From contig NC_132894.1 of assembly GCF_030463535.1 (NCBI RefSeq), positions 32,135,625 to 32,199,624 of the forward strand: 64,000 bases of DNA, in the 5' to 3' direction. The notes under the pieces were generated by a model. It saw nothing but the letters and a program-made list of their open reading frames with translations, made no database searches and was not told the DNA's origin. Positions 2,270 through 64,000 of the stretch are shown piece by piece. Both the position numbers and the translations under genes were made by a program. This DNA is from Salminus brasiliensis (Eukaryota > Chordata > Actinopteri > Characiformes > Bryconidae). Each line of letters begins with the position of its first letter. Positions within the stretch are counted from its first letter, which is position 1.

Positions 2270-3404
2270 GATGACTGTGTTATACTTGCATTTTCAGATT
2301 TATTCCCTACTGCTCCAGTGATGTGTGGAGTGGAGCTACGCCAAAAACAGACCAAAGTGAGTGACAGTACAGTGTTTTTGAGTGTGGTGAAGTTTTTTCA
2401 CATATAATACAATAGTCTTTGGTCGCAGATGTATGTATAAAATGGAAATATGGTGTCAGTGCTCTACAACCGGTGTCAAATAATTATTGGGTTATAAATA
2501 AATCAGAAGCTGCGAGCCCAGAATGATGAAAAGATCTTTAGATGATTTGAACATAACTGAGAAATTACTGGAACATCAACAAGGAAGAAATGAATATTCA
2601 GAATGTTTAAAGAGCAGTAATGAAATCTCGAGACTCGTCTTTGACCTGATAATACAGTATATGATCATTTGTATGATAATATTTGTGTTTTTTGTCAAAT
2701 TGAATGTTCTTTGTTGTTGTACATAAAATTATGACACAAAATTATGATGACAGGTGACCTCATCAAGAACAGTGCATGTGTCTGGGTTTATCAGTGGTGG
2801 AAAATAAAAGAAGTACAAGCTTTTTTCTTTGCTGTAATATCTAAAAATACAGCCGTAAGTGGCAATACAAGGGGTCCAATCACCATAACCGTGTGTCTGT
2901 GTCTCCAGTTGACCCCTTTATCTCTCTATGTGTGTGTTTGTTTAGATGACTATGCTTTCATGGGCTCGCTGATCATTCAGGAAGTTGTAAAGGAACTCTT
3001 GACCAAAGGGCTGGACAATGCTAAAGTCCTTCTACTAGCAGGAAGCAGGTCAGTATGCATGTAGCGGGACAGACAGTCATGACATTCAAGCTCTTTCAGT
3101 GTCATTCAAGTGTTGAATTTCATTTGAAGTGTAAAGCAGTTTAGAGGCTTCAATGATGTGTGTGTGTGTGTGTGTGTGATTGTATCAGTGCTGGAGGTAC
3201 AGGCGTCCTGCTGAACGTGGACCGTGTGGCCGAGCTGCTGAAGAGCAGAGGTCACGGGTCAGTTCAGGTCAGAGGCCTGGCCGACTCTGGGTGGTTTCTG
3301 GACAATAAGCAGTACCGCTGTACAGACTGTGTGGACACCATGAGCTGCGCCCCCACGGAGGCCATCAAGCGGGGCATCAGGTGAGAGCGAGAGAAGAGAG
3401 AGAA

Positions 3405-3439
<35 letters not shown>

Positions 3440-4977
3440 ATGTGAAATGCTGACACTGCTCTTTGTGCTGTAGGTACTGGGGTGGAGTGGTTCCTGAGCG
3501 ATGCAGGCTTGCTCACCCAGGAGAGGAATGGAACTGTTTCTTCGGTTATAAAGTCTACCCCACACTGAAGAGTAAGGGAGAAACAGCGCCCTCTGCTGGA
3601 TTCACACTCAAACAAGCCATTCACACCATTACCAGCCCTTCCACTCACTCACTTTCTCTCTCTCTCTTGCTCAGGTCCAGTGTTTGTGGTGCAGTGGTTG
3701 TTTGACGAAGCCCAGCTGACAGTAGATAACGTCCATCTGATGGGTCAGCCAGTGCAGGAGGGTCAGTGGCGGTACATCCAGAACCTGGGGATTGAGCTCA
3801 GGAACACCCTCAAAGACGTCCCGTAAGCATTTCCACACTCGCTTCAAAAATACTTATGCTTTCTCACAGATTTTCTCCACATCTAATCTGAATTCCAAAA
3901 GACCAATAAAAGCACACTGATGAAACTTTACCACCTGTTCTTCACTGTGTTCCACAGGGCCATGTTTGCACCTGCCTGTTTATCACATGAGGTGATCACC
4001 AGAAGGTGCGTTTTCCTCTTTCAGCCTTCACTTCAAAGGTTCAGTAATGGAAGTGCTTGGGTTTATGGTCGCTGTTTGCTCGAGTTGATCATTGGAAGCT
4101 AGTTCTTCTCGACAGGGTTGTTGGATATCACTTTTTTGGGCTTACTGGCCATTATTAGGAAGATGACACACAAAACTATAGCAAATGAATAACCGCAGAT
4201 GTTACACACATGGCAGTCGAGCAATGTCCACACCCAAACACACCTCTCAACTAGTTGGTGCTTTACAGTGTGAAGTACTCTGCCAATAGTAATAGAAAAG
4301 ATCAAGTCATAGCACCACCTGCTGTACTGGAGCAGCTAAACCGAAACCGCAGGTTTCCAAAGTGGGTTAGACTTCGCACAAACCTTGTGAGCTTTGTTTC
4401 GCTGCAAGTACACCAAGTCCTTAGGGTGGACTGATACTTGCAATTATCAGGAGATACTGACACTCATAGAATGCTTCTCAGCCAATCACAGTGCACGAGG
4501 GGAACTAACTCAACCCTCAGTGCTGTGCAAAGAGTTCAGGCCTCAAAACGGCTGAAGTGCAACCATGCAAGCTTCATCTTCTCTCTATTTGACTCATGTA
4601 ATGACTCTCTCTCCCTCTCTCTTTCTCTCTCTCTCCATAGTTACTGGATGGACATACAGGTGAAGGGTACGTCTCTGCCTCGTGCCCTCCAGTGCTGGGA
4701 CCGCAGCCTCCACCAAAGCCTCCGTAACCATGGCAACAGCAGCAGCAGTGGCAGCAGCCCCCGCTCTCCGCCCCGAGGCTGCCCGCTGCACCTCATCGAC
4801 AGCTGTCCCTGGCCCCACTGCAACCCCACCTGTCCCGCCATCCGTGACCAGCTGACGGGACGGGAGATGAGTGTGATTCAGTTCCTCACACACATGGGCT
4901 TCGACGTGCAGCGCATGGCACAGCAGCAGGGCCTGGAGCCCAACAAGCTACTGGGCATGCTCAACAATGGCAGCTGA
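1098..4977 (+). CDS. notum: NOTUM, palmitoleoyl-protein carboxylesterase (5' incomplete)
   Basis: Secreted alpha/beta-hydrolase that removes the palmitoleate lipid from Wnt proteins and so shuts off Wnt signalling outside the cell. Exons read as 1098-1158, 2298-2356, 2946-3048, 3189-3380, 3474-3571, 3675-3822, 3958-4005 and 4641-4977, all joining in phase to give 347 C-terminal residues. The nucleophile motif GSSAGGTG is split by an intron inside the catalytic Ser codon (3047-3048 plus 3189). The Asp of FDEAQ (3704-3706) and the His of CLSHE (3986-3988) complete the triad at the 49-residue spacing of human D340/H389. Other family landmarks are [34 protein letters not shown] and [12 protein letters not shown]. 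The end, LGMLNNGS, matches the family C-terminus, and only the Ser/Gly-rich insert in the last exon looks lineage-specific. Signal peptide and N-terminal exons are off-window. Fish have several notum copies; I cannot say which this is. Confidence 0.95.
2217..2268 (+). repeat. (TG)n microsatellite before a NOTUM 3' splice site
   Basis: About 25 uninterrupted TG dinucleotides end some 30 bases before the acceptor of the exon starting at 2298. A shorter TG tract (about 3157-3178) sits about 10 bases before the acceptor of the exon starting at 3189. Confidence 0.95.
3384..3440 (+). repeat. GA-rich tract filling a short NOTUM intron
   Basis: The 93-base intron 3381-3473 is mostly GAGA sequence starting directly after the donor. 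Its complement, a CT tract at about 3653-3669, precedes the acceptor of the exon starting at 3675. A second CT tract (about 4603-4636) precedes the last exon. See the finding on complementary tracts. Confidence 0.95.
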
Positions 4978-4980
4978 GCT

Positions 4981-5014
<34 letters not shown>

Positions 5015-7400
5015 GGCTTGCTAAAGATCAAGGAGAAGAAGAGGAAACGTTAGCTTACCCAATCAGAACACAAGAGGAATAAATTGTACTGGCCAATTAG
5101 AATGCAAACGGGACATTTCAAGTAGCCAATCAAAATACAGGACCTAAAAAAAAAATCAGTTAGCCACTCAAGAGTACAGAACTGAAAATTCAACAACCCA
5201 ATTAAATTGCATGAGGGAAATTTAACTAGCCAATCGGGTTGTAGCCCTGAAAATTCAGCGAGCAAGAATGCTAAACTAAACTAGCCAATCAGAGCAAAGG
5301 CCTGAAAATACTAGGCCAGTCAGAGTGCTAAACTAAAAATTCATCCAGCCAACCAGAGTGAAATACTGATAATTCAGCTAACAAATGAGAGTGAAAGACT
5401 GAAAATTCTGGTAGCCAATAAATGCGAAGGCCTGAATATTCAACTAGCCAATCTGAGTGCAGGGCTTAACATTTATCTAGCCAATCAAAGTGAAGGCCTG
5501 ACAATTCATCCAGCCAACCAGAGTGAAATACAGGAAAAATACAGCTAGCGGATCACAGTGCAGGCCTAAACTTTGGCTAGTCAATCAAAGTGAAGGCCTA
5601 AAAATCTAACTAGTCAATCCGATGGGTTTACACATAATAGGTGCACTGCTGGAGAGCAGTTTGGCTACCCAGTGTTCAACAGCGATGACAAAAACAGGTT
5701 TACAGCTTTGGATTGTTAGTGGCCACATTATTAGAAACCCCCACCATGCTGCTCCACCTTGTTAGCCCTTGTGTTGATTGTCCATTTGTGCTAGCCTTCC
5801 TTTGGCTCTTCATCAGTGCTCAGTTTTTGACCACAGAAGTATGTTTGGCCGCTCTTGAGGGGGGTATGGGTGTGTGTGTGTGTGTGTGTGTGTACCACTC
5901 TCTGCCTGGCAACTCACATGTGTGAACTCCGGCAACACCACTGTATCTCGTACCAGTGCCACACACACTTTACCTTTATCATATCAGCAGCAGCAGTCCT
6001 GTCGTCAAGAACTGACCAATGATGAATAAGCTGGACAGTGTATTTCTTATTCTGGATAAAATGGACCCATTATGTAGGTTGATCTCTGAAGGCGGTCAGT
6101 GTGGAGCAGTATAAGGTTGGAGTTTCTGATATGGCGAATGCATTGGGCATTCTCTATGTATGCACGTTCCAATACAGGCCTTTCAAAACATACATAAAGT
6201 TAATTTGCATAGATATATAATGCTAATGATAACAGGAGGGGGAATCCTCCTGCTCTGCAGACCTCAAAGTTCAAAGCGATGGAGGTAGTTTCACTGTAAT
6301 GATAAGCTTTCTCTGCCCTCTGCTGGCGGCAAAGGCAAACTGCAACAGAACTCATAAACCTCACAAATCAGAAATCATGAACAGGCTTTTTTTTTGGACT
6401 GCAATTTTTTGTTTGTTTGTTTGTTTTTTTGTTGATGTTATTGTTGTTGAGTACATCATTCTGTTGGACCGCCACAGCATATCGAGAGACTGTAACAAGA
6501 CTAGACTCTTCAACAAGAAGCTCCATGGTGCTACAGCAACATTGTTTCCATTCAGTTCAGTTCAGTTCTACATTATTCAGCACTGTTTTTTTTTTTGGGC
6601 CGAGTCTCTTGAGCATGAGCCAGTCCGTGAACTCCAGCAGGAACTCCAGCAGGCAATGGAATATGAACTAACGCCAGCACGGGAACGGCTGCCGATCACA
6701 AATCTCGCTCCCACTCAACCCTCGGGGTGGAGTGAGACGCAAGGCCCCAGCGCTGACGCCTTATTAACATATTGTATATGCTGTCACACAGTATGAAATA
6801 TGCATTTTACAGACACGTATGATATTCTCAGAGAACTGAGAACCAGCCTTCGAGCTCCAGGTCATATTTTGTAACATTTCTAAACAGGAGGTAAATGTAA
6901 GCTACACTGTTGAAGTTATCTATTTAATTTAATATGTAAATCCTATATTTATGAGGACCTCTGAGACAGAGAGGAGCTACTTTGTAAAGTGTACATACCG
7001 TTCAACACTTTCTTCGCTGGTTTGAATCGCATGTCTTTGTAACAAATTTTTAAAAAGGTACATTATAAAGGTGCAAAAAAAACCCAAAAACAACAACATC
7101 TGCTGGATGGTGTCCATGTTTTCTTCTGTGTGAAGCATATAGGGACCCTACCTGATGGCTTTCAAGTTTGAAATGTTATTACAACTGGATGTCATGGCTT
7201 AAAAGTACCATAAAATCATAAACTACACAAACTTAGCAATAGCAAAGTACTAAAATAGCAATGCTGCTTTTTAATCAGTGGCTCTCCCTTTGCTCTGTGT
7301 GAGCATGAAGTCCTGTACAATATTGTGTGTGTTATATTACACTTGCATCTTATAAATATCTACCATACTTCACAGTCTGAACATAAGGAGTTGTGTAGAC
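4978..7400 (+). other. NOTUM 3' UTR and intergenic stretch
   Basis: No coding exon seen. It starts with (CA)n just after the stop codon (4982-5010), then a degenerate minisatellite (5060-5625), a TG tract (5873-5893) and AT-rich sequence. The first clear plus-strand AATAAA I noted is at about 7409, inside a MITE-like inverted repeat. How much of this belongs to the mRNA cannot be judged from sequence alone. Confidence 0.6.
5060..5625 (+). repeat. Degenerate about 42-bp minisatellite with CCAAT motifs
   Basis: About a dozen imperfect copies of a unit containing TAGCCAATCAGAGTG followed by GAAGGCCTGAAAATTCA. It lies less than 100 bases after the NOTUM stop codon, so it is probably transcribed in the 3' UTR. 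Copies carry CCAAT or its near variants. Confidence 0.85.
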
Positions 7401-32600: not shown

Positions 32601-32978
32601 GTAAACACGCTTAAACCGGTTATGTCTGCGTGGTGTTTATCAAAACCTATATCAAAAAGGCATATTTGGACGGTATTCTGGCGATAATGAGTAATACTAA
32701 ATAACTCAGCAAGTTTATAAAGTTTCCTCGGAGTGGTACAGTCCCACTGGCGCTTGATTGACGGTAGCTCGCTGTAGCGTCTTAATCACACTCACAGAAA
32801 TATGTATAATAACGAAAGAGCATGTTAACAGTTACCAACTGATACTACGTTTAGGACTGAGATTTAGGGTGGTATAATAGGGTATAAATCGCTGACTGGG
32901 TGCTGAACATTTGAGTGAACAACATTAGATTAGATTAGATTAGATAGGAATGTTGTCACATTAATGGACATCGATATG

Positions 32979-33681
32979 CCTGTCTGTCTGTCTGTCTTTC
33001 TGTCTGTTTATCAGTCTGTCTGTCTGTCTTTCTGTCTGTTTATCAGTCTGTCTATCTTTCTTTCTGTCTATCTATCAGTCTGTCTGTCTGTCTATCTATC
33101 TGTCTGTCTGTCTTTCTGTCTGTTTATCAGTCTGTCTATCTTTCTTTCTGTCTATCTATCAGTCTGTCTGTCTATCTATCTGTCTGTCTGTCTGTCTGTC
33201 TTTCTGTCTGTTTATCAGTCTGTCTATCTTTCTTTCTGTCTATCTATCAGTCTGTCTGTCTGTCTGTCTGTCTTTCTGTCTGTTTATCAGTCTGTCTGTC
33301 TGTCTTTCTGTCTATCTATCAGTCTGTCTGTCTGTCTATCTGTCTTTCTGTCTGTTTATCAGTATGTCTGTCTGTCTATCTGTCTTTCTGTCTATCTATC
33401 AGTCTGTCTGTCTTTCTGTCTGTTTATCAGTCTGTCTGTCTGTCTTTCTGTCTATCTATCTATCAGTCTGTCTGTCTGTCTGTCTATCTATCTGTCTGTC
33501 TGTCTATCTGTCTTTTTGTCTGTTTATCTGTCTGTCTCTCTTTCTGTCTGTTTATCTCTCTATCTGTCTGTCTATCTGTCTTTCTGTCTGTTTATCTGTC
33601 TGTCTGTTTATCTGTCTTTCTTTCTATCTATCAGTCTGTCTGTCTGTCTGTCTGTCTATCTGTCTTTCTGTCTATCTATCA

Positions 33682-33718
<37 letters not shown>

Positions 33719-33989
33719 TCTGTCTATCTGTCTTTTTGTCTGTTTATCTGTCTGTCTTTCTGTCTGTTTATCTCTCTATCTGTCTGTCTGTCTGTCTGTT
33801 TATCTGTATATCTATCTATCTGTCTCTCTGTCTGTCTGGTAGATAGATAGACGGACAGACAGATAGCCAGCCAGACAGACAGACTGACTGACTGATAGAT
33901 AGATAGATAGATTAACAGATTAACAGATAGACAGACAGATAGACATACAGACAGATAAACAGACAGAAAGACAGATAGACAGACTGACT

Positions 33990-46568: not shown

Positions 46569-49500
46569 ATGGGAGAAGGTTTGGGGTTACAGCTGATGTC
46601 AATCTTACGTGAGTTGCACATTCTATCAGTATCTCGCAGCATGAAAAGGACAGAGAACATATTTTAATGTTTAATGCTGGCTTTAGTATGTGCTCAAGTG
46701 TCTAAACAGTCTGTTTTCCTCTGTTTGTATTTCAGTTTTGGCTGGAGATGTGACTAAAACAGGTAGATTTGCACCATTTTAGATAGATTAGACAGTGGCA
46801 TTAAAGGAATCATTTGGTGAAAAATCTAATTAATATGAGTTATGCTTTACCCAAGATGCAATCAATCTGTGAGGATGTGTTTAGTATTTGATGTTTGCTT
46901 CTTTGTTGTAAAATGGGAGTTGCTACGCAAACGTTGCTAACAAACATTGGATTTGGATTGTCACCATTCTCATGTGTGTAAATACATGCCCACAATTCAA
47001 CCAAAACATAACATGTCCAGACCTCCATGTCTTCAAGCAGACAAATGTGGTTTAAAAAAATCATGTATTAGGTGTTTATTTTGTCAAATTATTCCTTTTC
47101 TCCCAATTTGTTACTTCCAATTAACCCACCTGTTTGTACCTCCCCTTATTAATAGCAGTGCTCCTGTGCCTCCTCTGAAGTATGCTATTATGCTCTTTTC
47201 AAAAAGTGCCAGGGAGCTGACACGCCCCAGCTCCACCGCACCAACCATCGCACACCTCTGCCGGCCAACATCGCAATAAGTCAATTGTGCTCTCTCAGAC
47301 TCCGGCTGCTGATGGCAAAGGTGCACGGCTTGTAGTTTTCTTGACAAGCTTTTGCAGCAATAAGTTAATATGTTGGAAAGTGGTGATAGTCTATGTCCAG
47401 TGTTTCTTAGCAACATTAGCCTACAACAGCACACATCAGATAGCCCAATATGTCTTGGATGATAGATTACATTTGGGGTCAGTGATAAATCACGTTAACT
47501 TGATTATTAGATGAACTCCTTCATTAATCTCAGGCTCTTTATTGTGTGCAGGCGGATCGATTCCGAGGCCTCAGTTCACGGGGCCTAACATGGCCTACCT
47601 GAAATCTACAGAAATGTTTGAATGTAAGCTGTCGAGGTGGTCATCACCTCTGACCTACGAGCTCATTAAAAGCCCTGGGGAGGTTCTTGAGTCGATAGAT
47701 GATCCACTGGGAGGCCAGCCAGTCACTTTCACTTTGAGGGTCAATGAGAGGTCAGAGGGACAGTACGTATGCAGAGTGAGATCAAGAGGGCAAACCAGCA
47801 CCAGCGATGCTTTAAACTTACAAGTAGTGAGTGAGTAAGATATTTAAGCAGAACTGGTGAGCGTGGAATTAAAAAAGGTAAATTTTAACACTTTCATTTT
47901 CTCCTCCTCAGTCCCTGTACAAGGTGTCCAATTAGTCACCGATCCTGACCCGCCTGTCATCTACGAGGGGTCTGGGTTTACCCTGCACTGTCAGGTCAAA
48001 AAGGGGACTCACCTCGCTTACGTGTGGTACCACAACAAACAGGAGCTGAACCCACCCTCGGCCTTCCATCATCTCTCTGGAAATACACTGACAGTGGACA
48101 GAGCTGGCGAAGGGCATGCTGGGTACTACACATGTATGGCCAATAACAAGATGGGGAACAACAGTAGATACTCCAGCAGCACAGAGGTCACCGTTGTTGT
48201 GAAAAGTAATAGGGTTTGGTTAATTACTCCAAATCTTTACATACTTTACATACCTTATGACCTTTTGGACCCTCTGCTTTTTCTTCATTCATTAATCTTA
48301 TGTCTTTGCATGTTTATATCTTTATATTCAGTAGCTACTGTGGATGACTAATCAGCGATAACAATAACACCACCTGCCTAATATTAAGTAGAACCGTCGT
48401 GGCATGGACTCAGGAGGTGTCCTGTGACACCAAGGCATTAGCAGCAGATCCTTTAAGTCCTCTTAAGTTGTGAGGTGGGGCCTCCATGGATCACATCAAT
48501 GACCCTTAGGTGCCCTGTTGCCAGTTTATTGGTGGTTCCTTTCTTGAATATGTATAAAAAAAACAAGTCGGGGCCAACAGTGGCAATAAAGAAGTGTAAG
48601 AATCAGCCAGTCTCACTATTTACAAAGTTTTCTTGCTGGCTGTGGCATCAGTGAGTAAGAGGGTTGAGTTTTATTTTGTATGAAATTGGCAAATACAAAA
48701 AAATTGGTTTGCTAGCAGCCAAAAACATCACACACAAGGAAGTCCTTACCAACCTTTTTTTTACCCCAATTATTAGTAATTTTCAATTCCCACCTACTAG
48801 CTAGGACTTCCTTAATCACTAGATGAAGCCAGAGAGAATGAGGGCTAGCATGTGCTCCCTTCAAGTCACATGAAGCGAGCCACTGTATCTTTACAAAGTA
48901 CTCCAAAACAACATCATTGGACAGTTTGAGTGTAGAACTGTAATACTTTACAAAGCTTTACACAATAATGACTTCAGTATGTGTCTCATCATTCACAGAA
49001 TACCTGTCAGCTCCCAGGCTTTCATTCACCCTCTACCATCATGGCTCTGGTTACCATGCTAATGTCAGCTGCAGGTCGGCACGCGGCAGCCCGCCGGTGA
49101 CGTTCCAGCTCCTGCTGGATGGAAAGGAAGTGCCTGTTCAGCAGACAGGTTTGCTGGAGGCCTGGTTTAGTCTGCCTGTCTCTGTGGGGCTGGATATGGG
49201 AACGGTGCAGTGTAAGGCAGAGACTGACATTCAGCAGCTTCTTAGCGACCCAAAGGACCTGGAAGTGGGTGAGTAGTCAGAATTACAGCGATGGTTCTGG
49301 ATCTGAGGACAGGAGTATGGACAAAATTAAGGTTTAAAGATGTAGATACTTGTTCATCTTGGAAATGGGCTTCTTCTTTGCTGTAGTAACAGTCTCTGCT
49401 CTGTAGGAATACATAGAACCATTGCTATGTGGTCATCAGTGAGATTAGGTACTGATGCTGGATGATTAGTTCTGCCAGTCCAACCCAATCACTCCAGAGA

Positions 49501-50683
49501 ATGCATTTCCACTGCTCCACAAGCATTTGAACAAGTCACAAAGCCATCAGTTTTACTTGTGCATGATTCAAATATACACATCTCCTTCAGTTCCAGTAGG
49601 AGGCACTGCACGTGTCCTGGTGGAGTACCTCCAGACAGCAGACTCTGTGGTGGTGGCTGCCCTGCTCCAGTGTGTCATCACCAGAGGAACTTTCCCACTT
49701 TTCTCCTGGTCCTTCAACCGCACCATCCTACAAGCAGAGGAAGACTCTCATGCCTTAACTCTGAATGGCCGCATCCTAGTCGTCACAGCCATCAGTGCTG
49801 GGATCTCAGGTTCTTACAGTTGCAGAGCGCGGGACAGCTTTAACCCCAACTCATCTTGGGTGGACAGTGAGGAGGTGTTGGTTAAAATGACAGGTAAGAT
49901 GGTGCGGCCTTGTGTTCCTATTAGGTTTTGCAGTCAGTTACTAAAATACTGTACCCACGTTTAGTGTTGCAATATGTAATTTGGGTCGATCACTAAGATC
50001 TAGTGATAATATGATCGTAATGGATCTCTATGGATATCTTCTAAAATAAAATTGGTATATTTCTAAGCCAAACCAATCTGTAGTATTAAATTAGGAATTA
50101 AGAAAATCTTGTAATCCTGTAATCATGTGTATCATTATGTAATGCCTCTATGTCTTGTTTTGCTTTAAGAAAATTGCCTCAGTGCCTTTAGTGTTGGTTG
50201 TCATGATAGTGATCACTGCTCTGCTTTACATTCTATCATAGAGGTAGAGATGACCTCGGTAGAAGTCCTCGCCGTGGCGTTCTGCTGTTTCCTGCTGGTG
50301 GTTATTGTGGCAGGGGCGTGCTGTTTGTACTGCAGCATCAACCATGAGCGCTACCAAGACAGTAGCACTGGCCGTATGTCTCTAAACCCTGGCCGGTCAT
50401 TTAAGAGTGTAATTTCTATTCACATGACATGACAACACATACACACTTCTATCTCCCTCTCTTTTTTAGGGGAAGAGGACTGCTGGGAGCAGACCAAGTG
50501 AGATCTTACATTTGCATGCATTTTTTATGCATTTTTAAGCACCAATAATGAGTGAGATTGACTACACATGCCCTGGCCTGTTCTTTACTTTTTAGCCCTG
50601 AGACAGGTCATGCCATGCTAGAGACCGGACCTGGGCCACAGGTTGAAGAGGTGGAGGCAGATTTTATGGAAGTTGAAGTTTAG
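46569..50683 (+). CDS. Four-Ig-domain FCRL/PECAM1-like receptor, short tail (gene A)
   Basis: Type I membrane protein, 486 aa, of the Fc-receptor-like/PECAM1 Ig family. Exons: 46569-46608, 46736-46762, 47552-47830, 47912-48205, 48999-49268, 49591-49893, 50242-50373, 50470-50497, 50596-50683. Nearly all introns are phase 1. The signal peptide (MGEGLGLQLMSILLLAG) is split over two tiny exons, the second of 27 bases, a family hallmark. One Ig domain per exon: residues about 23-115, 116-213, 214-303, 304-404, each with the Cys pair (for example FECKLS/YVCRV, LHCQV/YTCMA). Membrane span about 410-435 (VLAVAFCCFLLVVIVAGACCLY). The tail of about 50 residues is acidic and has no ITIM or ITAM. Ligand unknown. 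Neighbour of tmc8, where human has C17orf99 (IL-40), also an FCRL-related Ig gene. Exon 1 is the least certain exon; the ATG inside it is an alternative start. Confidence 0.88.
47080..47300 (-). mobile_element. SINE-like repeat, family 1 copy, inverted
   Basis: Inverse complement of the family: GCCAGGGAGCTGACACGCCC, CACCAACCATCGC..ACCTC, GTCAATTGTGCTCTCTCAGA, CTCCGGCTGCTGATGGC. In gene A intron 2. Confidence 0.6.
48350..48620 (+). mobile_element. Dispersed repeat beginning CACCACCTGCCTAATATTA
   Basis: ACACCACCTGCCTAATATTA followed by CGTGGCATGGACTC and TGGATCACATCAATGACCC. A related start (CCATAACTTTAAAACCACCTG) appears at 58078. The type is common in fish genomes; element class not assigned. 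In the gene A intron between Ig domains 2 and 3. Confidence 0.6.
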
Positions 50684-52466: not shown

Positions 52467-55400
52467 ATGAGGTTTCCTTCTGAACTTCTGCTGGTTCTTC
52501 TGGGTAAAAAAGACAATTCTTTATTATTCTATTCAGAATACTTTTACAAATAACGGAGTCACAAATGGTTCTTTGAGCTGTAGAAGAACCATAAAGAACC
52601 ATAGGTATGTGTTTCTAGCACCTTTATTTTTAAGAGCATACTGTGCCAGAGTCTTTTGAGAGCATGTGTGACTGTGTTAGCTTAACCATGTCTAAAGCTC
52701 TCCTGGAGAAAGATCAGTGTTTCCAGTTGCTATCTAGCATCTAGTTTATCTTATCCAATCTATCCTCATTTATGTGCAGCCTTGGAGGTGTGAAGAGCCT
52801 TCTAGAAGGTATTTATTAAAAGTAGTTCTTCTGTGGTGTGTGTATTTAATTAAAATTCAATTAAAGAAAATGTACCCAGGCCAAGGTCCAGAACATCTAA
52901 CAAGGTCTAAACTCCATAAAAAACACACTCTTTGAATTTGACTGAATTTTTAGGTATCGGGACTTCATATAAAAAACATCTGGTCTTTAGAGTACAACAC
53001 ATAGCAGATTCCACGTGTCATTATTTATTTAACACAAATGGAGAAGCTCATTAACTCATAGCTTCATGAACCATCTGCAGCAATAGTTTGAAGTAATGGT
53101 TTTCTGTAAGACTTCTGTAAAGTCTCTCACATTGTTCTGGAGGCCCACATCTTCTTTACACTGTTGCTTCAGTTCATTGAGGATTGGTGGGCATTAATTT
53201 ATGCACAGCTCTCCTAAGGTACCGCCACAGCATTTCAGTTGGGTTGGGCTTTGGACTTTGGACTTTGACTGGGCCCCTGCAGCGCCTTGATTCTTTTCTT
53301 TTCCAGCCATTCTGTTGTGCATTTTCTGGTGTGCTTGGGATCATTGTCCTGTTGCATGACCCAATGTCAACCAAGCTTAAGCTTTTGGATAGATGGCCTC
53401 ACATTTGACTCTAGAATACTTTGGTATAAAGAGAAGTTAAAGAAGGTAAAAGACAATCCATAAAATCCATAAAAATGACTGACATGGTGCGTGACTGAAA
53501 CCACTGAGAAACTCTGGTAATAAATTTTTTCACCCCACCTCACCATATAAAACTAGTCCCATCCATATTGGGCTTTAGACAAATACTGAATAAAGTTTAG
53601 AAATAGTAGTCTTCTATGTGCCTGTGTTTCATGGCCTGTTCTTTCTTTTTTCCACTAGGCTTTTCTGGCATATGGCAAATGACAAGTAAGTGACCACATC
53701 TTCTCCAATGCAACCAGCTTCTGTTCTTCAAAAGATGCACACTGTTTAACTTACAACACTTACCCCAAACACCGTTGTTGTTCCTCATTCAAAGGAAAAT
53801 CCAGCTTAACCAAAAACAGGGCTGGAAATCCAAAACACCAAAACTGCTGCATAACAGTGCAGACAGGTTTAGCACAATTGTCCCTCAGTAACACTGGACA
53901 GCAGACAACGGGTTGCTACCTGAACCTGACTTCATGATCACGGCTTTTCCTGTGTCAGACAGGGAAGCGTATATCAGTGCTAGGCTAAAAGCTAACCCTA
54001 TCTATTATGAATGTATTTCTACAAACAATTTATTATTTATTCATCCTCGGCTGTTGCTTAAGTATGACACCGCGTCTCTTCCTATTTCAGACGGTGAGAT
54101 ATTAGGGAAACCCATGATCACCGGACCTTCTGATGGCATTTTAAAGAAGGTTGTAGAGTTTCTCTGCATTGTGGACCAACCCCCGTTAAACATGTCGGTT
54201 CTGTACGAGCTCTTTAAGGAAGGTGATTTTGTGAAGCCTTTTGGAGAGTACACTGCCCACGCTGGAGAGCCTGCCACATTTCCTCTGAGAGTCAGACTTG
54301 CCCATGATGGAAGGTTTATATGCAAAGCCAGCGGACACAACAACACAGAGGTCGAACCCTCATACAGTGACCCATTGCGCTTCAGAGTTATTGGTGAGTA
54401 AAACACAAAAGCAAAAGGCTCGGAGTCAGATGCTCACTACTGAAAGAGCAATTTAGCTTAAAGCAGTGAAGGAGAACAGTGGTGAGAACAGATCAACTTT
54501 ATGCTTTTTGGAGATCAGTTCCTCTTCTACTCGCTTTATTATTCACAGTAACAGAAAATCTGAACAGGGGGTTCCCTAACATTTGCATGTCAGTTTATAT
54601 GGATGCTTCTTCAGTAGGTGGATCTTTTAACCATTGAAACATAACAACAATTTTTTTGTTTTCATTTAGTGCTGTCAACATTAACGACTCATCTACAAAC
54701 TTTAACACATTCATATTTCTTAGCGCACATTTATCATCTTACCCAGTGTAGCCCCAACCTTCTCCCATAGGTCTCTCTCTTTACGGGGCCTAGTGACGTA
54801 TTAGCATTTTTATTTAGCGAGTGTCACTACTATTGAGCTCAGAGGGTAGATTACGCTTTCTTTATGCTGAAATATGGATTAAATCTCATAACTATCTCTC
54901 ATTCTCCTACACACACACACACAGCTGCTCCTCTCTTAGCTCTTTGCTTAATCCAGCCCAATGACAGATCATCTATTCATCTCTTGGTGAAGCATTTTCT
55001 CTGTTTAAGCTTTTGTGTTCGAGCTTCGCCATGTTCGAGGCTAAATTTCATTAAACTAAACAGAGATATCATAAGAAAAATTCAAGAATGTGGTAGCTAA
55101 CATAGTTAGAATATTGTTATGATTAACCTGATTAAATATTTGAATCAGTTGACGCCACTATTTTATTTATGTCACGACTGTGTATATGACCAAGACTGAA
55201 CTTCTATAGAATTCAAATATTTAATATTTATTTGCCAGATGGTAAAGTGCAGAAATCCAGGTTTTTCTAAAGGGTTCTCTTACATTTTCACACTTTATTT
55301 ATTTTCCAGAGCATCTGGGACACACAGGTAACCTTAGTTACGATGTCGTGGCCGGAGTGGGGGGTCAAATAGGCCCAAGTTGTTGGACCATGGCAGTGTG

Positions 55401-58400
55401 TATGTATGAGGGTGGAAATATCTCTCTAAATATGCAGCTACAGCATGATAATGTCCATTAAAAAATACACCAATAAAACCAATAAATAGCCTTAACAGCC
55501 TATATGACCAACTCTCCATCTCACAACATAGGCCTACTTGAAACCCCCCAGCCCCAACATCCTAACTATGATGGACACACAGGAAGCTAGACAGCTCACT
55601 GAAATATTCAGTCACTCCTGATATCATCCCTTATAAATAATTATACCAAGTAAATATTGTACTTTTCTAAACAGGGGAGAAATAATGTCTTTAAATGTTT
55701 TTAAATGTTTTTTTCTTTTTCAACACATTTGTTTTATTGTGTTTCAGAAAAGGCAGAAGGTGCACGTATCACATTAGACCCAGATTCTGAGGAATTCTGG
55801 GAGGGAGACAATGTGACCCTAAGGTGCAGTGTGGTTATAGGGAGTTACATCTTGTATGATTGGTTCCTGAATGTCGCGCCCATTGAGCTGCACTTTAACA
55901 GCTCCCATGGAGAACTGACCATTACGAGTCTCTCCACCAACGACAGTGGGGAATACAGCTGTGTGGCTTCAAACGAATACAGCAATGGCACTCTCATCTC
56001 CAGCAGCACTATCAGCAAGAATCTGCGTGTTAAAGGTAGTATCATATTCATATTCGATCATACGTACTGTATAACTCTGCTGATGGAAGGCTTCTGTTTT
56101 ATTAATGTGGAGAAAAGTCCTTTGCTTCAACCTGAATATCTGTTACATTTATATATTACACCTATTTATAGCTTTTGCTGGAAATTATGTTATTATTGTG
56201 CAGAACGTAGCACTGAGTCAAAAGACACATTTTGTTGATTTGTAAACAAGTGAATAAATCTTCTACACAATACAAACAAAATTATAAACAAGACCTTCAA
56301 TAATTCCTGTTTATTTTCTGAATTTAACATTTTTCACGATTTTAATGTGCTTAACTATATGATCAAATGTTCGTGGACACCCCTTTTAATGAATGCATTC
56401 AGCTATTTTAAGATGCACCCATTACTCACAAATGTGCAAATAGCTAGAGTAAGCAAGAGGGGTATAAAGACCCCCAGCATTGAGCTCTGGAGCAGCGGAA
56501 GAACTGTGTTCTCTGGAATGATGGATGATTTTCCATTTAATACTTTTGGATGATTTGGGATAAGGGATGAGGTGGGGTGGTGATTACCCAACGTCCTGAC
56601 TTCACTAACACTGTTGGCATTGAATGAAATCAAATCCTCACAGCAGTGGTGCAGTGGGCAGTGGTGGCTCAGCGGTTAGAGCGCCGGGCTGTTGATAACA
56701 GGGTTGTGGGTTCAGTTCCTGGGCTTGGCAAGCTGCCACTGTTGGGCCCTTGAGCAAGGCCCTTTACTTTCTCTGCTGCGCTGGAGTTGGCTGCCCACCT
56801 GTGTGTGTGTGTACTAACTGCCCCTAGTTCACTAGTGTGTGTGTTCACTTCCACAGATGGGTTAAATGCAGAGGACACATTTTGCTGTACTGTGACAAAT
56901 ACGTGCACCTTTACCTTTTCAGTGCTCCTAAAGCCTTTTCTGAAGAGTAGCTGCCTGATTAGAAACTGCACAATTTATAAACAGTTCATTTCAACTGCTG
57001 AAGTAATGAGACTTTTCTAAAAGTGTACTGAGTAAAAGGTACAGATTTGTCTTGTAAATGTAGGTTGTAGAATAAAAAATAATAATAATAAAAAAAAATA
57101 TATATATATAACCTTTTAGTGAGTAAAAAGCACAGTTTTTTCTAGTGAAATGTGGGGTGTGGGAGTAAAGTAGTATAAAGTGGCAGAAATAAACACGTAA
57201 TAAAACAAAAATACAAAATAAATATATATTTAAAAAATGAGCAAAATTAAATTAGCTACAGCATACACTGGAGATGAGCAGAGTCTGCCATGCTCCAAAT
57301 ACACTGGACAAGTTTGCATGCTTTCCTGGTATCTGTGTAGGCACATACTGTTAGACTGTTGCTTCTGCCTGATTGCCCCCTACCCACACTCCCTCCATTT
57401 TTCGCTACTACCTATTAAAAATTAATGGAGGCGAAATTACGAATGATAAATTAGCACGCACTGGACATGCACTGTTACGGTCTTCTCCCGAATAATCCAG
57501 AGCTGAAGTCTAGCAGTTTTGCACTTAGAGAATCAGAAACACTGTGCATAATCCTTTGCATAAGACTGTATTTTGTATTTGTGTGGATTGTGAAATATAT
57601 ACTGCATTCAATATAATGAAATGCTCGCTCTCTCTCTCTCTCTTGCTCTTTTTTGTCTTGCTCTTTCGCCAATCTCCCATTCTGCCCGATGCAGAGCTTA
57701 TGTCAGAACCAGAAATCTCATTTGCAGTTGTTAAAGATGGAAAGGGGATTTTCAGCGCCCTTGTGACGTGCAATTTGGACAAAGGAACCCCACCCATAAC
57801 CTTCAGCCTTCTCAAAAACGATACCAGTGTTGCTAGTGAACGAGGCCTACGCACTGTATTCTCTGTGCCAATTCATCTGGACCAGGACATGGGCTTGGTG
57901 CAGTGCCAGGCAAACGATGGGACCAGAATGCTGAAGAGTAAACCCCTCAACCTCACAGTGGGTATGTTGACCACACAGGAAAAGCATTCATGTAGCAGAA
58001 TGAACCTAAATACACAGACAGCATTCATGTGCTTGAAAAGGGAATAGAACTGGCTGCAGCCTCATATACACCAATCGGCCATAACTTTAAAACCACCTGC
58101 TTAATATTGTGTAGGTTTCCTTGATGTCGTTGCCAGTCCAGGCTCTTGATTACTGCTCTAAGTAACCTTTGAAAAGTGGGCAGGACATCGTTCACAAGAA
58201 CTGCGTAATGCTGCATAACCCGAGTCATGTTTGTGTAAAATCCAGCAATATCACTTTGCCCCCTCAGTCCTGTACAGACAGTTCTGTAACTCTCAGATTG
58301 TCCAGAAAAGCATGTCCTTAAAGGGCATGATGCGCTTCCTGGCTGTAGGGAGGAGCAAAAATACCAAATCTCCATAATGCTGCTTTAATGTTCATTTTCC

Positions 58401-61400
58401 ACTTTGTCACCCAAACAGAGTCAGTTGGAGGTGCCGTAGAAATGAAGATTCAGAAAATGGTGGAGCATGACTTTGAGGTTTTAGGCATTTGGCTGCAATG
58501 CAGTGTAGAGAGAGGAACCTTTCCACAATTCTACTGGTTCCTCAACAACACCATGCTAAAGAATCCAGGGTTATTTTACTTTTTGCTCAAGCCTAATGAC
58601 GCAGTCTTGGCATTCATTTTGGCCCCGGAAGCTGCTGGCATCTACCACTGTGAGGCAGCCAACGAATTCGACAACACCATGACACTTCGGAGTCAGAAAG
58701 TCCTGATCAGTAAGAAAGGTAACTGACTATGTGTGGGCTTGTGTGAGGCCTGTGTATGTCTGCATGGATGCAGAGGGTGCAAAATCAATTAAATCTGACT
58801 AAGGCATAGATTAAGCCTAATTTTACATGTTTAGTATGAGTCATTTATCTCTATTATTAGTGCAAGGCCAAGCACTCATTTTGCCTGGGTGGTTAAAGGC
58901 CATGGCTCCTAAATCTGGTCCTTGAGTCTCCATTTTTTAATGTCTTTTCACTCTTGAATGGCATATTAATTAGTGCAGTGTTATTATCAGGTGCATTGGT
59001 AGCATGGGAGACTGAAAGATGTCCACTGTATGAATTATGAGTTGACCGACACCCGAGTTGACCGTGCTCCAGTTATGCATTCTGAGTTTACCCCAACTGG
59101 TTTGACAATCCTTTACTGGTGTTTTATGGTGAATCTTACCAAAATGTTCCACTTTTTATGCCCCAAGTTAGCAATATGCTGTATTTAAATACCATGAGAA
59201 CACAGATAGAAGATGGACAGCACTGAATGTCTGGCTGATTTAATCAGACATAAAAATATATGTCTAATAGAAGTGCTAATGGACTGTAGAAAACTAGCTA
59301 CTGTTTTTACTACTGTTGATGTACGGTGCGGCCATATTGGATATGTAACTCTGGGTAGGTGAGGCTCTCCAGACTTCCCAAGCAGAAATACAACCTGTGG
59401 GGAATTTCAGCAGAAGTTCTGTACTTGGAACTCAAAATTACTCCTGAACCAGGACTGAAAACCAGGGACATGGTTTGGACCAGTTTTTTTCAACAAGAAA
59501 ATTCAATACTAAAAAAAAAAAAAAAGGAAAGAAAAAATAACTTTTTTATAATAATTTATAATGCAATACAGATTTACAGAGTTTACAAGCGTGTTCTTTT
59601 AATAAATACCGCGTTTCTAATTATTTTCCATTTCTGTTAGATTGTCTTTTCCAAGAAAAAGTACTACAAGGACGATATGGCTCATAAAAATACTTTATCT
59701 TATTGCATGCTATCTGGCACTACTGCTCTTTTCCATAATTGCATGTGACATTAATGATTTATGAAAATTATACCGTCACACAAACCTTCCAGCTTGACAG
59801 TAAATTTCATGCCAAAGCACTTTTGCCACGCTTAACGTGCTAGACGTGCATGTGGTGCCACCCAGTGGTAGATCTGTGTGGGTAGCCCAACTGGGAACCA
59901 GAAAGTTTAGCCCTCAGGTCCATTTTGGTCACATATGAATGATGGTACCAGGAGAAGTTAAACTTGGGTGCTATCTGGGTTGTACACTGCATATATGGGG
60001 CCTAGATGGGACCCATGTGAGATTAAGGTGGGCTCTAACAATAGGGCCCAACTGGGTTCACTGAATCCACCTAGTCCACGCTCCACCCATGTATATCCCA
60101 CATGACCATGTCGGCTGGGACCACTGTAACCTAATAAATAGGACTTCATTACTGTGTTGCATATTTTGCATGGTGTAAGGGCAATGCAGCCATGGCCCAG
60201 TGTGTCAAAGTGATTGTTGATGGTAAACAAATATATATGCTGCTAAAAAAATGACATGCTAAAAAAATGTTGGAGTACTCCTTTAAGTTCAGGGTTCTCA
60301 CTTTATAGAGCAGAAAACACACTCTCAGTAAAAGATGACGAATCTCAAATAATCATTTTTCTAAATTACGTAATTGGAGAGGGTCTAAAAATATAGGCCA
60401 CAATCTATAGAACAGCTATAAAACCAATAGTATGTTCTTTATTAAAGAAGAGTAGGTCACTCCACTGTTTTCCTGCTTTAGTGATGAACAAAGTTCCAGT
60501 GAAGGTGGTGGCGGTCATCTTCACCTGTTTCTTCGTGGTGGTGGTCGCTGTGACTGCCTGTTGCCTTTATGGGCTGGTATTACGTGAGTATATCAATGAT
60601 GCATATCAGTTTAGCATTCATGATGTTTCCATTCATAAACGTGTATATGTATTATTTGCAGAATCGTTACATGTCTGTGTCCTGTAGTAATTTATTTTTA
60701 GTGCCTAATTCCTCTGGTATTACCTGATTCCCACCAGGAAAGAGGACAACCAGCAAATACAGAGAGTAAGTTTATGAGGTTTATTTAAAACTAGACTGTA
60801 ATTAGATTAGATTCCATTCTAGGGCCTTCTCCAGGAGATTTCTTGACCACTATCACCCTCAGGATATTTGTCTTTTTCTTTTTAGTCTCAAAGAAGACTT
60901 GCAGATGAGTAACATAACCGACATTGTTGAATATGAGGATGAATTTGATGAGGAGGGAATGGTGAGGACCCATTTTGTCAAAGCTTTTGGTATTAAAGGA
61001 AGGGTTTGGTAAACAATCTGCCCCTTGCATGGATCATACTGCATCAACGTGTCTGAAGTCTGACTAGTCTGCATTGGAACTATTGACTAATGTAGCTATC
61101 AAACAGTGAAAAATCATATACCACACTGTCATCTGTGGGCAACATGGGCAAAGGTACATCTAGGGGTTAAAGCAACACTATGGAAAATGGCCATTTCTTG
61201 ATCCTTGGCTCCCCCTACAGTCAGGATTCAGTATAATTCACGCTTTAAGCCACCACTAAAGGACACTTTTTCTAGACGAACAGAGGAAAACACCCACCCC
61301 TGAAAGTGAAAGATACAGATAAAAGAAACATAAAGATAAAAAAAAATAATGTCATATGGTCTTTGTTATACATTTCGAATACATTTGGTGGAAAAACTGG

Positions 61401-63259
61401 AAGTGTGACTAACAGTCAGTGTTTTCCTTGTGTAGGCTGTAGATGCATTTGAAGAAGATCAGGACGTTGTAGAAGCCTCCAGGATAGAAGACTCTGATGA
61501 GGTACTGTGCTTCACACAAAGACTTCGGTGTTCCCTTGTGGAACAGCATCAGCATTCCAAAAACATTCAAAAGATTCCAGTCCTTCCACACAGTTCAAGA
61601 ACATCAGTATTGTTCAAACTCTGCCAGTTCTCACACTCACACTCTGAATTCAGTTCTTCTGTCAAAGCAGGCCATAAATATGTGGCCTGAGACAGGTGGT
61701 AATAATGTTGGTTTGCTTTGCAGGATGAAGAGGAGGATGAAAACAGTGAGGGAGAACAGGAGGAAGAAACTAGTGAACAGGAAGAAGAAATTGGAGAACA
61801 GAAGGAGATGTCTGGACTACAGGGAGAAGAACTCAGAGTAAAAGAAGAAGAACCTGGAGTACAGGAGAAGATGTCTGGACTACAGGGAGAAGAACCTGAA
61901 GTGCAAGAGGAGGAACATAGAGTACAGGAAGACGAACCTGGAGTACAAGAGGAGGAACCTGGAGTGCATGAAGAAGAACCTGGAGTACAAAAAGAAGAAC
62001 CTGGAGTACAAGAGGAGGAACCTGGAGTGCAAGAAGAAGAACCTGGAGTACAAAAAGAAGAACCTGAAGTACAGGGAGAAGATCCTGAAGTACAAGAAGA
62101 AGATCCTGGAGTACAAGAGGAGGAACCTGGAGTACAAGAAGAGGAACCTGGAGTACAAGAGGAAGGTCCTGAAGTACAAGAAGAAGATCCTGGAGTACAA
62201 GAAGAAGAACCTGGAGTACAAGAAAAAGAACCTGGAGTACAAGAAGAAGACCCTGGAGTACAAGAAGAAGATCCTGGAGTACAAGAAGAAGACCCTGGAG
62301 TACAAGAGGAGGAACCTGGAGTACAAGAAGAAGATCCTGAAGTACAAGAAGAAGAACCTGGAGTACAAGAGGAAGATCCTGGAGTACAAGAAGAAGATCC
62401 TGGAGTACAAGAAGAAGATCCTGGAGTAAAAGAGGAAGATCCTGGAGTACAAGAAGAAGGTCCTGAAGTACAAGAAGAAGATCCTGGAGTACAAGAAGAA
62501 AAACCTGGAGTACAAGAAGAAGATCCTGGAGTACAAGAAGAAGACCCTGGAGTACAAGAGGAGGAACCTGGAGTACAAGAAGAAGATCCTGAAGTACAAG
62601 AAGAAGAACCTGGAGTACAAGAGGAAGATCCTGGAGTACAAGAAGAAGATCCTGGAGTACAAGAAGAGAAACCTGGAGTACAGGGAGAAGAACCTGGAGA
62701 ACAAGAGGAAGATCCTGGAGTACAAGAAGAAGATCCTGGAGTACAAGAGGAAGATCCTGGAGTACAAGAAGAAGGTCCTAAAGTACAAGAAGAAGATCCT
62801 GGAGTACAAGAAGAAGAACCTGGAGTACAAGAAGAAGATCCTGGAGTACAAGAAGAAGACCCTGGAGTACAAGAGGAGGAACCTGGAGTACAAGAAGAAG
62901 ATCCTGGAGTACAAGAAGAAGAACCTGGAGTACAAGAGGAAGATCCTGGAGTACAAGAAGAAGATCCTGGAGTACAAGAAGAAGAACCTGGAGTACAAGA
63001 AGAAGAACCTGGAGTACAAGAGGAAGATCCTGGAGTACAAGAAGAAGATCCTGGAGTACAAGAGGAGAAACCTGGAGTACAGGGAGAAGAACCTGGAGAA
63101 CAAGAAGAAGAACCTGGAGTACAAGAGGAAGAACCTGGAGTACAAGAAGAAGATCCTGAAGAACAAAAAGAAGAACCTGGAGTACAAGAGGAAGATCCTG
63201 TAGTACAGGGAGAAGAACCTAGAGAACAGGGGGAAGAAACTAATGTACAAGATGAATAG
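52467..63259 (+). CDS. Four-Ig-domain FCRL/PECAM1-like receptor with long acidic repeat tail (gene B)
   Basis: Tandem paralogue of gene A, 1009 aa. Exons: 52467-52503, 53661-53687, 54091-54393, 55748-56035, 57695-57961, 58419-58718, 60482-60583, 60738-60765, 60886-60961, 61436-61501, 61724-63259. The split signal peptide ([15 protein letters not shown]) again has a 27-base second exon. One Ig domain per exon with Cys pairs EFLCIV/FICKA, LRCSV/YSCVA, VTCNL/VQCQA and LQCSV/YHCEA. Membrane span about residues 412-436 ([23 protein letters not shown]), then KR-rich stop-transfer. A 28-base exon follows, the same size and phase as in gene A. Then two small acidic exons ([28 protein letters not shown]) lead into a last exon that codes 511 residues of PGVQEED-type heptads. 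The tail after VEYED has no tyrosine and no classical ITIM. A possible 18-base microexon (55310-55327) would add six residues in frame. Exons 1-2 rest on splice logic. Confidence 0.87.
52548..52637. mobile_element. Short MITE-like copy, 7399-type family
   Basis: AATGGTTCTTTGAGCTGTAG, AAGAACCATAAAGAACCATAG, and the end CACCTTTATTTTTAAGAGCA. In gene B intron 1. Confidence 0.6.
53040..53420 (-). pseudogene. Degraded Tc1-like transposase remnant
   Basis: Minus strand encodes [16 protein letters not shown], a strong match to the C-terminal catalytic region of fish Tc1 transposases, preceded by decayed [20 protein letters not shown] (typically a DNDPKHT..TTEWL-like block). Only about 66 codons stay open. 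In gene B intron 1. Confidence 0.75.
56365..56660 (-). mobile_element. Family 2 MITE fragment, inverted
   Basis: CAAATGTTCGTGGACACCCC, TTAATGAATGCATTCAGCTA, GTTCTCTGGAATGATGGATG and AATCAAATCCTCACAGCAG match the inverted copy at 40545. In the gene B intron before Ig domain 3. Confidence 0.75.
56655..56935 (+). mobile_element. tRNA-derived SINE, family 3
   Basis: A-box-like GTGGCTCAGCGGTTAGAGCG and B-box GGGTTCAGTTCCTGG at tRNA spacing, then CCACTGTTGGGCCCTTGAGC and GTTAAATGCAGAGGACACAT, ending CAAATACGTGCACCTTTACC. Classic tRNA-head SINE of teleosts; its tail is also found at 30485-30615. Confidence 0.88.
58190..58392. repeat. Dispersed repeat ending CATAATGCTGCTTTAATG
   Basis: Shares ATGTTTGTGTAAAATCCAG, CCCCTCAGTCC and the end with the repeat at 20585-20985. 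It sits right before the acceptor of gene B Ig exon 58419, leaving 26 bases to the splice site. Confidence 0.65.
59870..60110 (-). repeat. GGGCCCAACTGGG-type dispersed repeat
   Basis: TGGGTAGCCCAACTGGGAAC, CTATCTGGGTTGTACACTGC and CTCTAACAATAGGGCCCAAC match 36600-36900. In the 1.76-kb gene B intron before the membrane-span exon. Confidence 0.65.
61165..61280 (+). repeat. Dispersed repeat fragment (AGCAACACTATGGA type)
   Basis: AAGCAACACTATGGAAAATGG, GGCTCCCCCTACAGTCAGG and ACCACTAAAGGACAC parallel the segment at 14775-14900. Confidence 0.55.
61800..63235 (+). repeat. 21-bp coding minisatellite (gene B tail)
   Basis: About 68 units of CCTGGAGTACAAGAAGAAGAT, all of 21 bases, so frame is never lost. 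Variation is mostly Asp/Glu/Lys/Gly at position 7 and Gly/Glu at position 2 of the heptad. Longer blocks are duplicated: GACCCTGG followed by the same variant order at 62291 and 62543 (252 bases, 12 units) and again at 62858 (315 bases, 15 units), and CAGGGAGAAGAACC..GAGAACAAG at 62681 and 63080 (399 bases, 19 units). GA-rich on plus, so CT-rich on minus. Confidence 0.97.
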
Positions 63260-64000
63260 ACCAACACACACAACACAGGCATTGTTAATGGCATAATAAT
63301 CAGAGACGGAAAATACAGGTCCAGAAAATAAAAGCTCTGCCTCAGGAATTTGTTCCAATTGCTTGGGCAGCTGAGCTGCAAAAAATCCTGGGATGTTTTT
63401 TTTTTCCAGAACTGAATTTTCTTTATCTCTAATAATAATCAGGATGCACTGAAATGGAATTTGTGGGCTGATATTGGATATCTGATATGTTTCATGTACA
63501 GATCTGCTGATGCACTTGGATCAACATTACAGAGAAATATAGTGATTATTTCTGCAGGGCTCTGAATGCAGTACAATGAATAAAAGACTGTTACTTTAGG
63601 CCGCAGAAGTCCAGCATCATCTAAACACCCTGCTCTCCTGGAGCTCTATACATGAGTCATCAAATGTCAGTTGGAAGTAATATCAGTCAAATAAACATCC
63701 AATTTTTTTCAAACAATCCTTTTTTTTTCTGACCAGTCTGTCGTGGTGAACTATATGAAGGTCTTGCATTCTTCTGCATCAGGCTATTCTGCTTTTTTAC
63801 TGCCTTTTTACTGGTTTTAAAGTGTTTTAAGAAAATGGTCAAATTGTTCCAAGAAAAAATGTATTGAATTTAAGTGGAAGGAAGGTTTTGAGTCGTGCTT
63901 TTTCATTGTTATATTTTTCCTGTAATAAAAGATTATGGTTTCCAATGTTTGTTTTTGTATGGGAGCGACTAAGGGAGTGAGGGAGGTAGGGAGTGACTTG
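63260..64000 (+). other. Gene B 3' UTR and downstream sequence
   Basis: No further gene seen. AATAAA candidates occur at about 63580, 63690 and 63924-63929; the last, followed by GATTATGG and a T/G-rich stretch, looks best as the poly(A) signal. Confidence 0.6.

Follow-up and report, generated by a model that had tools for sequence, protein, structure and literature searches.

Results

Two adjacent Ig-family receptor genes

The window (the whole stretch of DNA analysed, 64,000 nucleotides) contains two tandem genes for Ig-family receptors, gene A and, downstream from it, gene B. A TMC-domain gene lies directly upstream of the pair, at about 43.8-44.3 kb; as human TMC6 and TMC8 are located near C17orf99, conserved linkage is possible. 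Elsewhere in the window, a Pectinacetylesterase-family match is found at about 2951-3046, within an interval of about 2950-4980; this is possibly NOTUM. The open reading frame at 4438-4977, which has no Pfam family above cut-off, may be the end of the Pectinacetylesterase-family gene. Scans of the 64-kb window yielded neither an Rfam match at gathering score nor a tRNA gene. Inspection by eye revealed tRNA-SINE-like text at 56640-56900, in a gene B intron.

The gene B model, extended in the present analysis, comprises 11 exons (52467-63259) and encodes 1009 residues. The exons were predicted from splice signs and phase alone; every intron is GT-AG and the phases chain throughout. The features of the two genes are as follows.

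47552-50683, + strand: gene A, tandem paralogue with four Ig domains, membrane span, 28-bp exon and 88-bp acidic last exon
52467-52503, + strand: gene B exon 1, N-terminal half of signal peptide (12 residues), phase 1 out; in-frame ATG, hydrophobic, GT donor
53659-53685, + strand: exon 2, 27-bp mini-exon, C-terminal half of signal peptide; AG/GT, phase 1-1
54091-54393, + strand: exon 3, Ig domain 1; phase 1-1, aligns with gene A domain 1
55748-56035, + strand: exon 4, Ig domain 2; Pfam Ig_3/Ig_2/I-set
57695-57961, + strand: exon 5, Ig domain 3; Pfam Ig_C17orf99, 40.6 bits against a cut-off of 26
58419-58718, + strand: exon 6, Ig domain 4; aligned to FCRL5 (phmmer) and to gene A
60482-60583, + strand: exon 7, membrane span; hydropathy peaks at 2.92 (19-residue window), aligned with the gene A span
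60738-60765, + strand: exon 8, 28-bp basic juxtamembrane exon; matched in gene A by a 28-bp exon in the equivalent position
60886-60961, + strand: exon 9, acidic cytoplasmic exon, 25 residues
61436-61501, + strand: exon 10, acidic cytoplasmic exon, 22 residues
61724-63259, + strand: exon 11, carrying the array; 73 slots of seven codons each, consensus PGVQEE(D/E), TAG stop at 63257-63259
63260-63929, + strand: predicted 3' UTR region of gene B; AATAAA/ATTAAA signals at 63327, 63579, 63690 and 63924

Gene B is predicted to encode four Ig domains, each on one phase-1 exon, ahead of a hydrophobic span that begins at residue 415. The cytoplasmic region amounts to 568 residues, against 414 preceding the span (signal peptide included). 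An earlier note on this DNA had described an Ig-family receptor carrying the repeat array in the correct phase as a cytoplasmic tail larger than the ectodomain, and both points are borne out by the predicted exon chain. The same note had placed two small acidic exons before the array. Both are present, but there are actually three small cytoplasmic exons, the 28-bp basic exon having been missed. Finally, the description of the tail as tyrosine-free holds for the array exon but not for the cytoplasmic region as a whole, which contains two tyrosines, one in the sequence SKYRDL, jointly encoded by exons 8 and 9, and the second in IVEYEDE. SKYRDL is an ITIM-like match, the ITIM consensus being [SIVL]xYxx[ILV].

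Gene A ends in a short acidic tail devoid of any array, its 88-bp last exon encoding the terminal acidic VEEVEADFMEVEV. Aligned with each other, the two proteins share 138 identities over 439 columns; the Ig domains, the span and the juxtamembrane part all fall within the best aligned stretch. Pfam family Ig_C17orf99 also matches gene A, with 57.6 bits against the cut-off of 26. The model of this gene covers the exons from the Ig domains to the acidic end.

A seven-codon repeat fills the last exon of gene B

The array exon (1536 bp) consists of a single GAT codon followed by 73 slots, each of 21 bp and all in the same register. It contains 511 sense codons and no indels; the last slot ends in the stop codon, the protein terminating in TNVQDE. 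The single frame through 511 codons reported in the earlier note is thus confirmed, and its count of about 68 copies is a fair one: 37 slots read PGVQEE[D/E] exactly, all in register, and of the 72 complete slots, 63 differ from this sequence by no more than two residues. At the DNA level, mismatches to the consensus were judged against a background drawn from 45.0-61.6 kb (median 15, 0.1% quantile 9). The first recognisable unit is slot 2 (61748), with 6 mismatches; slot 1, with 13, is unrecognisable as a repeat, and slot 4, with 10, is marginal. No repeat was found 3' of the stop codon, where the five slots tested gave background values (14-18 mismatches). Tandem Repeats Finder assigns the array scores of about 2000 at periods of 42 and 63, far above chance.

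Counted from slot 1, the 510 residues of the array carry a net charge of -200, as the strongly negative tail of the earlier note would have it, and lack Y, C, W and F altogether. Within the array core (slots 9-72, 448 residues), which is 42% acidic, S, T and M are missing as well. The mean number of acidic residues per unit holds steady at 2.95-3.00 along the array. At the nucleotide level, the exon is 74.5% purine. No Pfam family was found for the array at E values up to 1, and viral contigs yielded no confirmed relative of gene B domains 2-4 or of a piece of the tail.

The open frame is weak evidence of coding in itself

An imperfect CTGT array at 32980-33838, assumed to be non-coding, was used as a negative control. 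Over 859 bp it has no indels and keeps a single phase throughout; its three forward frames are free of stops (286, 286 and 285 codons), the reverse frames containing 26, 25 and 19, and a 292-codon open reading frame covers it (32964-33842). Likewise, the 21-bp array can be read without a stop in one antisense frame, where a 604-codon open reading frame spans it. An open frame with zero indels was therefore rejected as proof of coding. Because long frames come free in such repeats, the case for coding depends on the phasing of the exon chain and on the array ending at the stop codon.

That repeats give long frames without coding would suit an array lying mostly outside the protein, as a result of alternative splicing or polyadenylation, or of gene decay; alternatively, the copy number could be an assembly artefact, exact repeats of up to 164 bp being open to short-read misassembly. 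We consider this set of explanations quite improbable. Against it stand the canonical acceptor in the correct phase, the ten other intact exons, and the in-phase stop at the array edge, followed by poly(A) signals. Furthermore, exon 11 has no internal acceptor by the rule applied (YAG after at least 9 pyrimidines in 12), one GTRAG donor-like site being present. We infer that gene B is expressed and spliced into the array exon.

Block duplications within the array

Units at the edges of the array are diverged, those in the middle nearly identical. Mean mismatches per unit are minimal at lags of 9, 12 and 15 units (2.04, 2.06 and 2.00, respectively). At lag 12, a stretch of 7 units recurs exactly; at lag 15, 12 units are 98.4% identical (4 mismatches in 252 bp). 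The longest exact repeat within the array measures 164 bp (at 62252 and 62504). Duplication of whole blocks is apparent in the DNA.

62147-63112, + strand: higher-order blocks of about 14-16 units with starts near slots 21, 35 and 50; the final block runs to about slot 66 (edges drawn by eye)

A homogeneous middle combined with exact repeats at these lags is typical of recent unequal exchange. The copy number is likely to be polymorphic between individuals, the figure given here depending on the quality of the assembly.

Minisatellites with 33-bp and 24-bp units occur elsewhere in the window, at 5279-5619 and 421-800, respectively. The 24-bp array contains a GGGCCCAACTGGG-like motif that, on visual inspection, reappears within introns of gene B (near 59886 and 60045).

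Substitutions among units

Changes between units were counted on a minimum spanning network of 29 haplotypes (core slots 9-72) and compared with a matched neutral simulation; such counts are estimates and have little power for subtle constraint. The core gave 37 changes, 10 synonymous (10.2-10.3 expected) and 27 nonsynonymous. Slots 2-72 gave 61, of which 14 were synonymous (15.5 expected), and slots 1-72 gave 73, with 17 synonymous (18.0 expected). Thus, the synonymous fraction is neutral-like in each set. Nonsense changes are absent throughout. The neutral expectation was 2.2 for the core (P about 0.10), 3.9 for slots 2-72 (P 0.016-0.018) and 4.7 for slots 1-72 (P 0.009). Of the last two, the figure for slots 2-72 is the safer, since slot 1 cannot be recognised as a repeat. 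There may be a mild bias against truncation of the tail.

Changes that gain or lose an acidic residue number 18 in the core, against 11.5 expected (P 0.022, for an excess, not a depletion), and 24 in slots 2-72, against 18.8 expected. Charge-neutral replacements, D/E swaps excluded, are scarce in the core (3 against 8.2 expected; P 0.028, uncorrected for the six classes compared), but not in slots 2-72 (11 against 14.0; P 0.22). In direct comparisons of duplicated blocks, all four differences between slots 33-44 and 48-59 alter the protein, as do three of the four between slots 21-24 and 35-38. The two remaining comparisons comprise one of 7 units with no difference and one nested within slots 33-44 versus 48-59. 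Overall, residue-level constraint on the array is not clearly visible. Purifying selection on Glu and Asp positions, for which the earlier note had proposed a check, was not seen, synonymous changes being at the neutral expectation and acidic positions unprotected.

These data bear on the idea that the tail is selected for length and charge rather than for sequence, as a long, disordered acidic bristle, devoid of phosphorylatable residues, that would space the signalling tyrosine, crowd the inner face of the membrane or buffer cations. The restricted, acid-rich composition of the 448-residue core, the constancy of acidic residues from unit to unit, the lack of nonsense changes and the acidic nature of the upstream cytoplasmic exons are all consistent with selection on bulk properties. 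Nevertheless, we find it unlikely, though it is the foremost alternative to the account favoured below, as acid gain and loss in the core run slightly above the neutral level and the gene A tail is short. A related proposal is that a length-variable, S/T/Y-free polyanionic tail generated by unequal crossing-over sets signalling reach, acting as a tunable brush beside one ITIM-like tyrosine, with copy number varying from individual to individual; we rate its chances as low.

Discussion

The account that we favour, and judge somewhat better than even, is that an already acidic last exon contained a 21-bp unit without stop codons, which expanded by unequal exchange, largely neutrally, in a receptor that tolerates the resulting tail. 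An ancestral acidic tail, whose short form would persist in gene A, may have held one such unit of seven codons. This would then have been copied, in whole units and in blocks of about 15, by unequal crossing-over or gene conversion. With a unit length divisible by three and no stops, the array can change in length and stay in frame. The resulting tail, some 510 residues long, would be acidic and intrinsically disordered and is apparently tolerated by the receptor, any signalling presumably proceeding via the juxtamembrane SKYRDL tyrosine, used as an ITIM. At most, the tail might serve as a sequence-independent spacer acting through bulk charge.

The earlier note had suggested a charged bristle, a calcium or cation buffer, a scaffold or neutral growth of a minisatellite; of these, the last agrees best with the substitution data. 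Full neutrality is not established, however, given the absence of nonsense changes, the small number of charge-neutral replacements in the core, the end of the array at the stop codon and the constant acidity. The first three of these are also the few coding-like signals in the exon, the array ending exactly at the stop. In conclusion, gene B represents a genuine, unusual variant of an FCRL-like receptor gene, and the origin of its array was probably neutral.

If expressed, gene B would constitute a natural experiment on how much disordered charge the tail of an immune receptor can bear, for which the adjacent, array-free gene A offers a ready control. Long reads would allow the number of units to be genotyped and tested for association with signalling or immune traits. 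If neutral, the expansion would illustrate that, through a seven-codon unit without stops, a receptor can add more than 500 residues at little cost.

Comparison with known systems

Among sequences of solved structures, to which this comparison was confined, FCRL5 is the best phmmer match of both genes (gene B domains 2-4, the query being without domain 1: 4.7e-28, 105 sequences matched; gene A domains 1-4: 5.5e-38, 86 sequences matched). PECAM1 is absent among the best 60 of the 105 matches of gene B and the best 60 of the 86 matches of gene A. Membership in this group was ruled out: PECAM1 has six Ig domains and two ITIMs, whereas gene B has four Ig exons and one ITIM-like match. Assignment to C17orf99/IL-40 was likewise rejected. 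The Ig_C17orf99 domain is present in both genes, but C17orf99/IL-40 is secreted and without a membrane span, which gene B possesses.

The array resembles the C-terminal domain (CTD) of RNA polymerase II in its tandem heptads and regular proline (best phmmer E value to the array, 9.2e-07). Unlike the phosphorylatable YSPTSPS unit of the CTD, the array core contains no S, T or Y. Homology to the CTD or to SF3A2 was rejected, the matches reflecting shared periodicity and low-complexity composition. A coiled coil is not supported either, since a proline occurs every seven residues. The array has the attributes of a coding minisatellite or VNTR: tandem units, a unit length that is a multiple of 3 bp, and homogenisation in blocks. 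No published description of such a tail turned up among the papers listed by literature searches, the single PGVQEE hit being a urology case report.

RPGR exon ORF15 is likewise terminal and rich in purines, and it encodes a long acidic domain rich in Glu, whose GEEEG/GEEEEG repeats are glutamylated, according to the available portion of PMC4890669. By analogy, the Glu-rich units of gene B could be substrates for side-chain glutamylation and work like the Glu-Gly domain of RPGR-ORF15, their exon being terminal, purine-rich and Glu/Gly-containing. This strikes us as highly improbable: EED/EEE is flanked by Q and P rather than set in a G-E(3-4)-G context, and the array consists of PGVQEE(D/E) units ending in TNVQDE and a stop, with neither GEEEG repeats nor a basic end domain. 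RPGR is, moreover, a ciliary protein with Glu-Gly repeats and a basic end domain, as described in the same portion of that source, and homology is not claimed.

The closest parallel is with the FCRL family. The accessible sections of PMC2413239 list as FCRL features a two-exon signal peptide, phase-1 Ig exons, cytoplasmic exons apart from the span exon and YxxL motifs. Neither these sections nor those of PMC4016189 mention a repeat-array tail. Gene B differs from this scheme in its 510-residue acidic array and in having a single YxxL motif. It shares with FCRL genes (PMC2413239, same sections) the predicted two-exon signal peptide and phase-1 exons, as well as cytoplasmic exons separate from the span exon and a YxxL/I/V motif in the tail, with one match, SKYRDL. 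In zebrafish, four FcRL5L genes are reported, two each on chromosomes 3 and 7 (PMC4016189, in the sections available); the occurrence of these fish FCRL5-like genes in pairs is matched here by genes A and B.
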